Shown piece after piece: positions 43,439 through 55,792 of a stretch of 64,000 bases of DNA. The notes beneath the pieces were generated by a model. It did not search any database and was not told the origin of the DNA. It saw only the letters and a program-made list of their open reading frames with translations. Every line of letters begins with the position of its first letter. Positions within the stretch are counted from its first letter, which is position 1. Origin of the DNA: Streptomyces longispororuber (lineage in GTDB: Bacteria > Actinomycetota > Actinomycetes > Streptomycetales > Streptomycetaceae); NCBI RefSeq assembly GCF_014656095.1, contig NZ_BNBT01000026.1, positions 1 through 64,000 of the forward strand. Direction: 5' to 3'. A program made the position numbers and the translations under genes.

Positions 43439-43577
43439 TCGCCGGTTACCGCGCGGGAGCGGCGGCATCAGCGCATCCCGCGGCGGACCACCCGCAGCGG
43501 CACCGCCGCGGGCCGGGTCCCCGCCGATGGCCTCGGGGCGCTGGTGCGCGCCCGCCCTCATGTGATTGTCTGGCTCC

Positions 43578-43652
43578 ATGACCGTGCTCGTGACCCGCCG
43601 CCACGTTGACTACGGGCGTGTCACCACCACGTGTTGTCCGGCCGTGAGCTGA
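43578..43652 (+). CDS. Cysteine leader peptide upstream of metY-metX
   Basis: A 24-codon ORF: MTVLVTRRHVDYGRV followed by TTT, two adjacent Cys codons (TGT TGT) and PAVS. The core RRHVDxxRVxxxxC is the pattern of the short actinobacterial putative leader peptides found before sulfur genes. In a genome that prefers TGC, paired TGT codons are striking. It ends 154 nt before metY and is followed by the hairpin at 43689-43746. There is no good Shine-Dalgarno, so the mRNA may be nearly leaderless. Inference: ribosome stalling at Cys codons under cysteine shortage alters folding downstream and raises metYX expression. Confidence 0.75.
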   Translation: MTVLVTRRHVDYGRVTTTCCPAVS

Positions 43653-43688
43653 GTCCGCGCTCCGGTCCCGACCAGTTCCCTCCCTCCG

Positions 43689-43746
43689 CACAGGGTCAGC
43701 CGCCGCCCGCGCTCCGGGCGTGACGGACAGCCCTGTGGTTCTTTCG
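43689..43746 (+). promoter_or_regulatory. Candidate attenuator hairpin in the metY leader
   Basis: CACAGGG (43689-43695) pairs with CCCTGTG (43731-43737), enclosing an inner stem CGCCCG / CGGGCG (43704-43709, 43715-43720). The outer stem is followed by GTTCTTTCG, a pyrimidine-rich tail. Position between leader peptide and metY suits a conditional terminator. Confidence 0.6.
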
Positions 43747-43806
43747 CGCCTTCCCGCACCCCCGCACCAGGGGACGACCCCGCCTTCCGCGCAAGGGAGC
43801 ACCACC

Positions 43807-45168
43807 ATGAGCCAGCCCATCGACTCCGTCACCGCCGGCCACACCCCCGACGAGCCGCCCACCGGGCCCGACACCTCGGCCTGGTCGTTCGAGACCAAGC
43901 AGATCCATGCCGGGGCGGCGCCCGACCCGACGACCGGGGCCCGGGCGACACCGATCTACCAGACGACGTCGTTCGTCTTCCGGGACACGCAGCACGCCGC
44001 CGACCTGTTCGCACTGGCCGAGCCCGGCAACATCTACACCCGTATCCACAATCCCACCCAGGACGTCTTCGAGCAGCGCGTGGCGGCCCTGGAGGGCGGT
44101 GTCGCGGCCGTGGCGCTCTCCTCCGGCCAGGCGGCGGAGACCCTGGCGATCCTGACGCTGGCGGGTTCCGGCGACCACATCGTCTCCAGTACGTCGCTGT
44201 ACGGCGGCACGTACAACCTGTTCCGGCACACGCTGCCGAGGCTCGGCGTCACGGTGTCGTTCGTGGACGACCCGGACGACCTCGAGGCGTGGCGGGCGGC
44301 GATCCGGCCGAACACCAAGGCCCTGTTCGCGGAGACGCTGGGCAATCCCCGGGGCAACGTGCTCGATGTACGGGGGGTCGCGGACGTGGCGCACACGGCG
44401 GGGCTGCCGCTGATCGTGGACAACACGGTCCCGACCCCCTATCTGCTGCGGCCCGTCGAGCACGGCGCGGACATCGTCGTCCACTCGGCGACGAAGTTCC
44501 TCGGCGGGCACGGCACGGCCATCGCGGGCGTGGTCGTCGACGGGGGCACCTTCGACTTCGGGGCGCACGCCGAGCGGTTCCCGGACTTCACCGAGCCCGA
44601 CCCCAGCTACCACGGGCTGCGGTACTGGCCCGCGCTGGGACCGGGCGCGTTCGCCGTCAAGCTCCGCGTGCAGTTGCTGCGCGACCTCGGTCCCGCCCTC
44701 TCCCCGCACTCCGCCTTCCTGCTCCTGCAGGGCGTCGAGACACTCAGCCTGCGCATCGAGCGCCACTCCGCCAACGCCCAGGCCCTGGCCGAGTGGCTGG
44801 AGGAGCGGGACGAGGTCGCCGCCGTGCACTATCCGGGGCTCACGTCGAGCAAGTGGTACGCGGCGGGGCAAAGGTACCTGCCGAACGGTGCCGGCGCCGT
44901 GGTCTCCTTCGAGCTGCGGGACGGCGTCGAGGCGGGCAAGCGGTTCGTGGACGCCGTGGAGCTCTTCAGCCACCTCGCCAACATCGGTGACGTGCGCAGC
45001 CTCATCATCCACCCGGCGTCCACCACGCACAGCCAGCTCGACGAGGAGCAGCTCGCGGCCACCGGCACCTCCCCCGGCCTGGTGCGCCTGTCGGTCGGCA
45101 TCGAGCACCTCGCCGACCTCAAGGCCGACCTGGAGGCGGGGTTCCGCGCGGCGAAGGGCGCGTCCTGA
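43807..45168 (+). CDS. metY: O-acetylhomoserine sulfhydrylase (bifunctional O-acetylhomoserine/O-acetylserine type)
   Basis: A 453-residue PLP enzyme that makes homocysteine from O-acetylhomoserine and sulfide. The PLP lysine is Lys230 in HSATKFLGGHG; NPTQDVFEQRVAALEGG and SSGQAAETLAIL are characteristic of the family. ATG at 43807; an in-frame upstream start would run through the attenuator. Preceded by a Cys leader peptide and coupled to metX, giving direct sulfhydrylation of homoserine. Confidence 0.95.
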   Translation: MSQPIDSVTAGHTPDEPPTGPDTSAWSFETKQIHAGAAPDPTTGARATPIYQTTSFVFRDTQHAADLFALAEPGNIYTRIHNPTQDVFEQRVAALEGGVAAVALSSGQAAETLAILTLAGSGDHIVSSTSLYGGTYNLFRHTLPRLGVTVSFVDDPDDLEAWRAAIRPNTKALFAETLGNPRGNVLDVRGVADVAHTAGLPLIVDNTVPTPYLLRPVEHGADIVVHSATKFLGGHGTAIAGVVVDGGTFDFGAHAERFPDFTEPDPSYHGLRYWPALGPGAFAVKLRVQLLRDLGPALSPHSAFLLLQGVETLSLRIERHSANAQALAEWLEERDEVAAVHYPGLTSSKWYAAGQRYLPNGAGAVVSFELRDGVEAGKRFVDAVELFSHLANIGDVRSLIIHPASTTHSQLDEEQLAATGTSPGLVRLSVGIEHLADLKADLEAGFRAAKGAS

Positions 45169-46316
45169 ACACCGTCCTGACGCCGTCCGAGGTCCCCCTC
45201 CCGCCGGCCTCCGGGGCCTGGCGGGAGGGGGACCCGCCCGGGCGTCGCCAGTGGTACGAGCGTGACGCGCCGCTTCCCTTGGAGGCCGGCGGTGAACTCC
45301 CGGGCGTACGGCTCGCGTTCGAGACGTGGGGGCGGCTCGCTCCCGACCGTGCCAACGCGGTCCTCGTCCTGCACGCCCTGACCGGTGACAGCCACGTCGC
45401 CGGGCCCGCCGAGCCTGGGCACCCCACCCCGGGCTGGTGGGACGGGCTCATCGGCCCGGGGCGCGCCCTCGACACGGGCCGCTGGTTCGTCGTGGCCCCG
45501 AACGTGCTCGGCGGCTGCCAGGGCAGCACCGGGCCGGTGTCCCTCTCCCCGAGCGGACGCCGCTGGGGTGGTGGGTTTCCCCGCCTGACGCAGCGTGACC
45601 AGGTGGCCGCCGAGGCGGGCCTGGCCGACGCGCTGGGCATCGACCGCTGGGCCCTGGTCGTCGGCGGGTCGATGGGCGGGATGCGGGCGCTGGAGTGGGC
45701 CGTGTCGCACCCGGGGCGGACGCGGGCGCTCCTGCTGCTCGCGACGGCGGCCGCGGCGAGCGCCGAGCAGATCGCCTGGGCGAGCGTCCAGCTCCATGCC
45801 ATCCGCGGCGACCCGCACTGGCGCGGCGGCGACTACCACGACGCCGGCCCCGGACGCGGCCCGCACGCGGGACTCGGCCTCGCTCGTCGCCTCGCCCACG
45901 TCACCTACCGCAGCGAACGGGAGCTCCAGGTCCGCTTCGGCCGGGCGCCGCAGGGCACGGAGGACCCCTGGAGCGGCGGCCGGTACCAGGTGGAGTCCTA
46001 CCTCGACCACCACGCCGCCAAGCTCGTGCGCCGCTTCGACGCGGGCAGCTACGTCACGCTGGCGGAGGCCATGAACCGTCACGACGTCGGTCGCGGCCGA
46101 GGCGGTACGCGCGCCGCCCTGAGCCGTGTGACGGCCAGGACCCTCGTGGCGGGCGTCGACTCGGACCGCCTCTACCCGCTGTCCCAGCAGGCGGAGCTGG
46201 CGGCCGGGATACCCGGGGCGGATCGCGTGCGGGTGGTCGAGTCCCCGTACGGTCACGACGGCTTCCTCATCGAGGTGGAGCAAGTGGCCGCGCTCGTGCG
46301 GGAGCTCGTCGGCTAG
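45165..46316 (+). CDS. metX: Homoserine O-acetyltransferase
   Basis: A 383-residue alpha/beta-hydrolase-fold enzyme acetylating homoserine for MetY. Nucleophile Ser169 is in VGGSMGGM; NVLGGCQGSTGP and the terminal YGHDGFLIE (catalytic His) are diagnostic. The conserved N-terminal region (GRRQWYERDAPLPLEAGGELPGVRLAFETWG) begins well upstream of the first standard start codon (TTG 45279). The only suitable start is CTG at 45165, which overlaps the metY stop (CTGA) and has AAGGG seven bases before it. A rare CTG start with translational coupling is therefore proposed. Confidence 0.88.
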   Translation: MNTVLTPSEVPLPPASGAWREGDPPGRRQWYERDAPLPLEAGGELPGVRLAFETWGRLAPDRANAVLVLHALTGDSHVAGPAEPGHPTPGWWDGLIGPGRALDTGRWFVVAPNVLGGCQGSTGPVSLSPSGRRWGGGFPRLTQRDQVAAEAGLADALGIDRWALVVGGSMGGMRALEWAVSHPGRTRALLLLATAAAASAEQIAWASVQLHAIRGDPHWRGGDYHDAGPGRGPHAGLGLARRLAHVTYRSERELQVRFGRAPQGTEDPWSGGRYQVESYLDHHAAKLVRRFDAGSYVTLAEAMNRHDVGRGRGGTRAALSRVTARTLVAGVDSDRLYPLSQQAELAAGIPGADRVRVVESPYGHDGFLIEVEQVAALVRELVG

Positions 46317-51990: not shown

Positions 51991-52098
51991 TCAGGAACAG
52001 GAGCGACAGAGGGCGCCGGCCACGCGCTGGAGGTCGATGTGGGGCCGGCCGTGGAGGCGCACGGCACGCGGGGCAGTCGTCACCCGGCCCACCTCCAT
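51991..52098 (-). CDS. Cysteine leader peptide upstream of the monooxygenase operon
   Basis: A 35-codon ORF with AAGG seven bases before its ATG. The peptide ends GRPHIDLQRVAGALCRSCS, with both Cys encoded by TGT in the last five codons. The RPHIDLxRVxxALC core matches the leader before metY and the one before the ABC transporter. Between its stop and the next gene lies a GC-rich segment able to fold (CGCCG ... CGGCG around CCCGCGGG). Inference: cysteine-responsive attenuation of the flavin monooxygenase genes. Confidence 0.78.
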   Translation of the reverse strand: MEVGRVTTAPRAVRLHGRPHIDLQRVAGALCRSCS

Positions 52099-55288: not shown

Positions 55289-55450
55289 TCAGCCTCGGCA
55301 GCGGGCGCGGCCGCCCGGCGTGGTACACAGCGCGCTGTTCACGCGGAGCAGGTCGACGGCACGATCGGCGACGAGCGGGGGCAGCGGGCTCGCGTACGGC
55401 TGTACGCGGCCCTGGGGGCGGCGCGTCGCCGTCCGGGGGGCTGCGTCCAT
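55289..55450 (-). CDS. Cysteine leader peptide upstream of the ABC transporter operon
   Basis: A 53-codon ORF beginning MDAAPRTATRRPQGR; its distal part reads DRAVDLLRVNSALCTTPGG and ends RARCRG. The VDLLRVNSALC core is the same as in the other two leaders of this island. Cys codons are TGT and TGC. The exact start is uncertain because no clear Shine-Dalgarno is present; the conserved segment lies in the last 24 codons. Inference: cysteine-responsive control of organosulfur uptake. Confidence 0.68.
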   Translation of the reverse strand: MDAAPRTATRRPQGRVQPYASPLPPLVADRAVDLLRVNSALCTTPGGRARCRG

Positions 55451-55792
55451 GGCGTCACCGTCACCGTTCCGGCCCCAGGGGCCTCGCGCTTACCGAACAT
55501 CATCGGCCGGGTCGTCACCTGGGGCACCCCACCGCGGGGGGAGGGTTGCCGGTCAGCAAGCCAGGGCTTCTCGCTGACGCTCATGACCGTTCCGTGCGGT
55601 AGTCAAGACAACCGCACGCACGGATGTCAACGCCGGTCCAGCAGGTGGAACGGCTGGACGGACGGCGTGGGCCGCCCTCCCCCGCGGCCCGTTGGCGGCG
55701 TGCCCCGGCGGTGCGGGTGCGCCGCCGGGGGGGGGCGAGTGTGCCGCCGGGGGGGCGAGTGTGCCGCCGGAAAGCGGGGCGTGTGCGCCGGG
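55451..55792. other. Intergenic region between the ABC operon leader and haloperoxidase gene
   Basis: The promoter of the ABC operon should lie here. CCGTGCGGTAGTCAAGACAACCGCACG near 55592-55618 holds the dyad CGTGCGGT / ACCGCACG (8 bp, about 10-base spacer), a candidate operator. No gene was found. Confidence 0.5.
55731..55770. repeat. 20-bp direct repeat after the haloperoxidase gene
   Basis: GGGGGCGAGTGTGCCGCCGG occurs twice without spacing (55731-55750, 55751-55770), with a partial third copy before it. Confidence 0.9.

Follow-up and report, generated by a model that had tools for sequence, protein, structure and literature searches.

In the window (the whole 64-kb stretch of DNA that was analyzed), the metY and metX genes are preceded by a short upstream open reading frame (uORF), two hairpins and a C-rich spacer (Table 1). 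A first-pass annotation of this region had read the leader as a transcription attenuator built of paired Cys codons and a nested hairpin, and all elements that it named were found where it had placed them. Its paired Cys codons are codons 19 and 20 of the uORF (TGT TGT, 43632-43637), and the preference of the genome for TGC was borne out by 101 TGC and 19 TGT codons in 37 ORFs of the window, an approximate count based on a simple ORF caller. That no SAM riboswitch lies upstream of metYX also held, as the sole Rfam match in the 64-kb window at gathering thresholds was a SAM-IV riboswitch located elsewhere (55481-55588, - strand).

Table 1 Features of the metYX locus and its leader in the window.
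Feature	Position	Strand	Basis or remark
-10-like hexamer TTGTCT, 6 nt 5' of the uORF ATG	43566-43571	+	predicted leaderless promoter
uORF, 24 codons + TGA, MTVLVTRRHVDYGRVTTTCCPAVS	43578-43652	+	stop TGA 43650-43652
uORF GCTCGTG, complement of CATGAGC (43806-43812) at the metY start	43586-43592	+	
Cys codon 19, TGT	43632-43634	+	not conserved
Putative sensor Cys codon 20, TGT	43635-43637	+	
H1 hairpin across the uORF end	43641-43666	+	43641-43649 pairing with 43659-43666
C-rich spacer, possible Rho loading region	43653-43792	+	base composition
H2 nested hairpin	43689-43737	+	predicted fold
H2 outer arms, CACAGGG and CCCTGTG	43689-43695, 43731-43737		
H2 inner arms, CGCCCG and CGGGCG	43704-43709, 43715-43720		
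GTTCTTTCG, directly 3' of H2	43738-43746		
metY Shine-Dalgarno, AAGGGAG	43793-43799	+	read from sequence; conserved in the alignment of relatives
metY, O-acetylhomoserine/O-acetylserine sulfhydrylase	43807-45168	+	NF005872, E 3.2e-249, over cut-off
metX, homoserine O-acetyltransferase, start uncertain	45279-46316	+	NF047917, E 4.5e-160, over cut-off

The uORF before metY and its relatives

The GTDB species collection was scanned for MetY, the best 80 of 538 confirmed loci were taken, and the uORF was recognized by the strict motif RRH[VI]D[YF] at most 600 nt upstream of metY. By this motif, the uORF was present before metY in 50 of the 80 relatives (51 leaders when the window is counted), and this conservation lifts the leader above chance. 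The strict motif was absent from 30 of these best 80 of 538 loci, including L040 with 47 nt of upstream sequence. Inspection of 29 of the 30 by eye revealed degenerate forms of the uORF in at least six (L021, L033, L067, L069, L073, and L076). Twenty of the 30 loci lacking the strict motif were run through Rfam, which matched no SAM riboswitch in any of them. A promoter-like stretch of the GTGCTTACCTCGTCGCA type was seen by eye near metY in the uORF-less loci L038, L048, L056, and L059, and a similar one in L015, L023, L027, L031, and L049, as if the leader had been lost and the promoter kept. In S. sulfonofaciens, the leader (L064:2864-3004) lacks the usual stop and overlaps the metY start.

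Codon 20 was TGT in 50 of the 51 metY leaders, with one CGT (L046), and codon 19 encoded Cys in only five. The adjacent Cys pair emphasized by the first-pass annotation is thus present in this leader but is a minority trait of which only the second Cys is conserved, and we rejected it as the key feature. The codon for Arg14 was CGT in 44 of the 51 leaders, a codon that accounts for 4% of Arg codons in the metY genes of this set.

Among the 50 ATG-starting metY leaders, T was found at -12 in 48 and at -7 in 48, and none carried a Shine-Dalgarno-like run before the uORF start. A scan with a generic sigma-70 consensus called no promoter site at the leader. The promoter-like spacing and the lack of a Shine-Dalgarno-like run fit a leaderless uORF transcript, as predicted from the sequence.

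The leader was compared with three leader peptide models and scored below the cut-off of each: NF042936 (Ms4527A; 26.9 bits, E 2.7e-6, cut-off 45), NF042934 (18.5 bits, or 16.3 bits in the genome-wide search, cut-off 27), and NF042933 (Ms5788A; 15.9 bits, cut-off 45). Searching its own genome with NF042934 gave 21 places at E values up to 10, seven of them over the cut-off, and 11 leaders of the uORF type were read, many before sulfur genes. According to Pfam, the genes after the ten other leaders include those for a PLP-dependent enzyme (477 nt away), a luciferase-like monooxygenase, a nitrite/sulfite reductase, a cysteine dioxygenase, a sulfatase, a rhodanese, a flavin reductase, an SDF symporter, and two ABC permeases. 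The leaders of this genome link metYX with transport and sulfur-scavenging genes. With 11 such leaders and two SAM-IV riboswitches in the genome, the earlier suggestion that the metY leader may be the main sulfur control is overstated.

Some of these loci showed further features. In the window, the Cys leader HGRPHIDLQRVAGALCRSCS, followed by a stop, lies before a luciferase-like monooxygenase gene (52006-52062, - strand). The SAM-IV riboswitch (55481-55588) is followed by the Cys leader RAVDLLRVNSALC, with TGT, before an ABC permease gene (55325-55588, - strand), forming an apparent two-input leader for SAM plus cysteine. In a survey of 32 SAM-IV places, two of which yielded no locus, this pair was found at seven of nine lower-scoring loci (L219-L227) and at none of 21 top-scoring ones (L198-L218). 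Another Cys leader (L084, on contig C1 of the own genome) precedes the gene for a type I cysteine dioxygenase, an odd place for induction by cysteine shortage; this leader may regulate in the opposite direction, or a different thiol may be the substrate of the enzyme.

Codon choice at the putative sensing cysteine

We defined the putative sensor as the Cys at +11, counted in residues from the one that opens the (H/A)VD motif. A further 67 leaders were read in 12 congeneric genomes (27 loci and the next 40 over the cut-off by rank), and others came from a class-wide search, in which the family was present in 57 of 79 genomes, five of the 79 belonging to the same genus. The class-wide search added 29 new loci, of which 25 were parsed with TGT (three from the same genus), three were unparsed and one was in the wrong frame.

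The +11 Cys was encoded by TGT in all 11 leaders of the own genome, for which the chance probability is 1.6e-9 at p = 19/120. When the congeners were included, 77 of 78 leaders could be parsed, and +11 was TGT in 72, TGC in two and a Ser codon in three. The Ser codons (AGT or AGC) replace the sensor Cys in L150, L157, and L161, two of which have a Cys four residues earlier. Over all loci, covering Streptomyces and other actinomycetes, Cys was found at +11 in 99 of 107, written TGT in 97 and TGC in two. The other Cys codons in the stretch that was read, from eight codons before the motif through the stop, were 104 TGC and 27 TGT. In the genus set, they numbered 34 TGC and 11 TGT on the 5' side of the sensor and 27 and 6 on its 3' side; in the class-wide set, the numbers were 30 TGC and 5 TGT before the sensor and 13 and 5 after it. 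Some upstream Cys codons, such as five TGT at -8, may precede the start codon, so that the contrast is conservative. The sensor differed from the other Cys codons at 9e-37 (Fisher's test), a value that ignores relatedness, many of the leaders being orthologues. Loci were picked by a protein model and a Cys at +11 was required; neither step sees the codon.

The peptide itself was also strongly conserved in the 99 leaders, with near-invariant residues at -5 (L, 97/99), -2 (R, 98/99), +3 (L, 97/99), and +5 (R, 99/99), and with D at +2 in 99/99, which was required by the search expression. The codons of these residues varied. Arg at -2 was encoded by CGG (42), CGC (28), AGG (11), CGT (9), and CGA (8), and four to five synonymous codons each were used for R -2, R +5, and L -5. 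Because almost only one codon is used at +11 while the near-invariant residues vary in theirs, we infer that the L, R, D, L, and R positions are selected as peptide and the Cys at +11 as codon. The near-invariant UGU beside freely varying codons separates selection at the codon level from that at the peptide level within a 20-residue uORF. That L, R, D, L, and R are strongly conserved as residues while their codons vary would also suit a peptide that works in trans from a leader that does not regulate metY, but the near-fixed TGT (97/99) points to decoding rather than to the product, and the motif recurs at 11 places in one genome, many before sulfur genes, which makes this explanation very improbable.

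RNA pairing was considered as a cause of the TGT and rejected. In the 99 leaders, the third base of the sensor codon was paired with a mean probability of 0.50 compared to 0.59 for all bases, and the longest downstream complement was 6.64 compared to 6.63 in shuffles. Two tRNA-Cys genes were found on different contigs (L238:386-459 and L254:53-127), both with anticodon GCA, in a check of 40 stretches covering 66 tRNA matches, 65 of which were confirmed by ARAGORN. Since both genes have GCA, UGU is presumably read through G-U wobble with tRNA-Cys(GCA). Decoding by G-U wobble is slower. With the same anticodon in both tRNA-Cys genes found, selective charging of isoacceptors, an existing theory (outlined in PMC1183508), gives no direct explanation of the TGT.

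We advance, as a tentative proposal to which we give rather less than an even chance, that the actinobacterial leader family senses cysteine by one codon and not by a run. The conserved stretch L-x-x-R-x-H-V-D-L-x-R, which lies 6 to 16 residues ahead of the Cys, would prime the ribosome from within the exit tunnel, and UGU, read by wobble only, would make this one decoding step hypersensitive, so that UGC would weaken or abolish regulation even with the peptide unchanged. If this single-codon reading is true, the functional part of the sensor lies in the third base of a single codon. Actinobacterial cysteine leaders themselves are known, and the question raised here is how a single cysteine codon could act as a sharp sensor. 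A TGT to TGC change permits a one-base test of the sensor, and a UGU leader offers a simple rule for locating sulfur-regulated operons. We met no statement of such a UGU rule in the literature on these leaders or on regulatory codons, as far as its accessible texts go.

RNA structure and the manner of control

The fold of H2 (-31.7 kcal/mol; z -1.57) was equalled or bettered by 18 of 200 shuffles and is alone not beyond chance, and the folding energy of the whole leader gave a z of 0.07. Across 48 leaders, the fold of the uORF was ordinary (mean z 0.16) and was discarded as a signal, and that of the sequence after the uORF was mildly below shuffles (mean z -0.99).

Covariation in H1 and H2 was moderate. 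In H1, 77.7% of cells were paired in 50 leaders (L064 was left out). Double changes occurred in 12 of its cells, against 4.3 for shuffles (0 of 500), but H1 did not exceed shuffles in the number of pairs showing such changes (58 of 500) or in that of pair types (200 of 500). In H2, 71.5% of cells were paired and 19 cells had double changes compared to 8.9 in shuffles, both in 19 leaders hand-picked from the 51 for a visible hairpin; pair types were not above shuffles (253 of 500), and sliding by one column equalled the covariation score. RNAalifold kept four outer pairs of H2, none with double changes. Of the covariation that the first-pass annotation had proposed to look for in the stems, the excess of double changes was thus found and an excess of pair types was not.

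Mean pairing probabilities over 34 leaders of 220-290 nt indicated H1, a helix within the uORF, H2 weakly, and pairing between the uORF and the metY start (GCTCGTG/CATGAGC, about 0.22-0.24 at the core pairs). No helix competing with H2 exceeded a mean probability of 0.12 in these leaders, and the folding check for alternative structures thus found no antiterminator. The terminator scan called no intrinsic terminator in the leader; T makes up 5 of the 8 letters of the tail GTTCTTTC, which however follows a stem outside the loop limits of the scan. The three results, namely no terminator call, no antiterminator and the four pairs of RNAalifold, do not bear out the classical terminator attenuator of the first-pass annotation. 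Another leader-like uORF of this genome, L088, which scores under the family cut-off, also speaks against it, with just 43 nt separating its stop codon from the next ATG. An intrinsic-terminator attenuator would have H2 as its terminator, to be disrupted by an antiterminator that a stalled ribosome favours. It could draw on the H2-like hairpins followed by GGTTCC-like tails in some of the family, on the double changes in H2, and on the complementarity of TGTCCG (43635-43640) to CGGACA (43724-43729) within the 3' half of H2; set against the three results above, it is improbable.

In a translational effector, the metY start would be closed by pairing with uORF RNA and kept open by ribosomes within the uORF. 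The complementarity of GCTCGTG in the uORF to CATGAGC agrees with such pairing, and codon 4, which was CTC in 39, CTT in 10, CTA in one and TTT in one of the 51 metY leaders, never ended in G (0/51), while CTG or TTG occurred in 41 of 99 other leaders. CTG, never used here, makes up 65% of Leu codons in the metY genes of the relatives. The lack of a general terminator points the same way. However, CATGAGC is also coding (MSQP), which gives another cause for its conservation, and the predicted access to the metY start was not raised by a single stalled ribosome. When one stalled ribosome was masked, access fell from 0.47 to 0.44 and rose in only 14 of 45 leaders, and pairing between the uORF and the metY start went from 0.25 to 0.50; a switch of start-codon access by one stalled ribosome was therefore rejected. 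With a queue of ribosomes over the whole uORF, access was 0.51 and rose in 30 of 45 leaders. M. smegmatis cysteine genes are described, citing Canestrari 2020, as under translation attenuation (passage in PMC13236596), and because of this we weighted the translational effector up and Rho-dependent and intrinsic termination down. We regard the translational effector as a realistic candidate, a little short of an even chance.

Rho-dependent termination in the C-rich spacer after the ribosome leaves the uORF is rather unlikely, though a real candidate. The spacer has a C/G ratio of 1.72 here, in the top 2% of 140-nt stretches on both strands of the window, and was C-rich and G-poor in 50 of 50 metY leaders counted, with a mean ratio of 1.92. 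On the 3' side of the ten other own-genome leaders the ratio was 1.1 to 2.1, including two of only 1.1 and 1.3, and base composition is a weak sign. Rho was suggested for mycobacterial cys leaders in 2005 and called weak there (in the part of PMC1262725 that treats them). Translational control and Rho may act together, and either would fit better than intrinsic termination.

Taken together, the metY leader is likely a cysteine-responsive uORF attenuator, judged from its sequence and that of its relatives. In the best reading, the putative stall site is UGU codon 20 of a leaderless uORF. This is favoured by the conservation of the uORF, its likeness to Cys-rich leader families, the near-invariant UGU, the conservation of the peptide, the 11 leaders of the genome, many of them before sulfur genes, the promoter-like spacing, the lack of a Shine-Dalgarno-like run, the C-rich spacer, and the double changes in H1 and H2. 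Against it stand the 30 of 80 relatives without the motif, the lack of a called terminator or sigma-70 site, the ordinary folding of the uORF, the hand-picked H2 set with its equal score after a one-column slide, the masking result, the CGT in L046, the three Ser members, and the odd place of a leader before a cysteine dioxygenase gene. That a Cys-coding leader controls metY, as first proposed, is likely in view of the uORF conservation and the family similarity, and this leader is related to described cysteine leader peptides.

In the cysteine-responsive attenuator, transcription would start at or beside the uORF ATG, giving a leaderless message. When Cys-tRNA is scarce, the ribosome would pause at UGU codon 20 with L-x-x-R-x-H-V-D-Y-x-R in its exit tunnel, and the stalled and queued ribosomes would prevent the uORF RNA and the spacer from folding back on metY or ending before it, so that low cysteine would lead to expression of metYX. 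With ample cysteine, the ribosome would complete the uORF and leave at the stop codon, and expression would drop. This drop would most likely come from metY translation being held back by pairing of the uORF RNA with the metY start, followed by Rho acting at the untranslated C-rich spacer.

Comparison with known systems

The metY leader is real, conserved and of a known kind; what is new is the codon, and neither the Cys pair nor the hairpin. For cys operons of mycobacteria and some other bacteria, a comparative paper of 2005 predicted leader peptides that lack obvious terminators (the relevant part of PMC1262725). Conserved cysteine-rich leaderless uORFs before cysA2/Msmeg_5788 and nirA/Msmeg_4527 were described by Shell 2015 (excerpt of PMC4633059), and the NCBIfam models Ms4527A and Ms5788A bear the locus numbers of these M. 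smegmatis uORFs. Canestrari 2020 is cited for cysteine-responsive attenuation (passages of PMC9094748 and PMC13236596). In the accessible part of a reannotation of S. lividans (PMC8079986), eight leader peptides are listed, of which none depends on cysteine, and metY goes unmentioned.

Similar to Ms4527A and Ms5788A (NF042936 and NF042933), the metY leader is a short uORF, predicted to be leaderless, that combines the core R-x-(H/A)VD-x-x-R with a Cys near the peptide end and has a sulfur gene downstream (nirA and cysA2 in those cases). It differs from them in scoring below both cut-offs, in having one conserved Cys and not a run, and in preceding metY; it also has Tyr after HVD, where most leaders of the family have Leu. 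It shares the motif register of NF042934, annotated as a putative leader peptide (cis_reg_atten), but lies under the cut-off that seven places in its own genome exceed.

Among systems with described Cys codons, uORFC-8-2 before cysS of Rhodobacterales is likewise a uORF with a putative stall, thought to arise at its Cys codons for want of Cys-tRNA; it differs in having two conserved tandem Cys codons, mostly UGC, and a U-run terminator (as portrayed in the available text of PMC8632094). The conserved metY uORF carries a Cys codon close to its end and precedes a sulfur gene, and it probably senses cysteine shortage, as in mycobacteria. If this is right, its working would be that of the mycobacterial polycysteine leaderless uORFs, as these are represented in texts citing Canestrari 2020. 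Unlike these uORFs, it has a single conserved Cys codon, UGU. What is surprising is that the relatives examined nearly always use UGU, otherwise a rare codon, for the putative sensing Cys.
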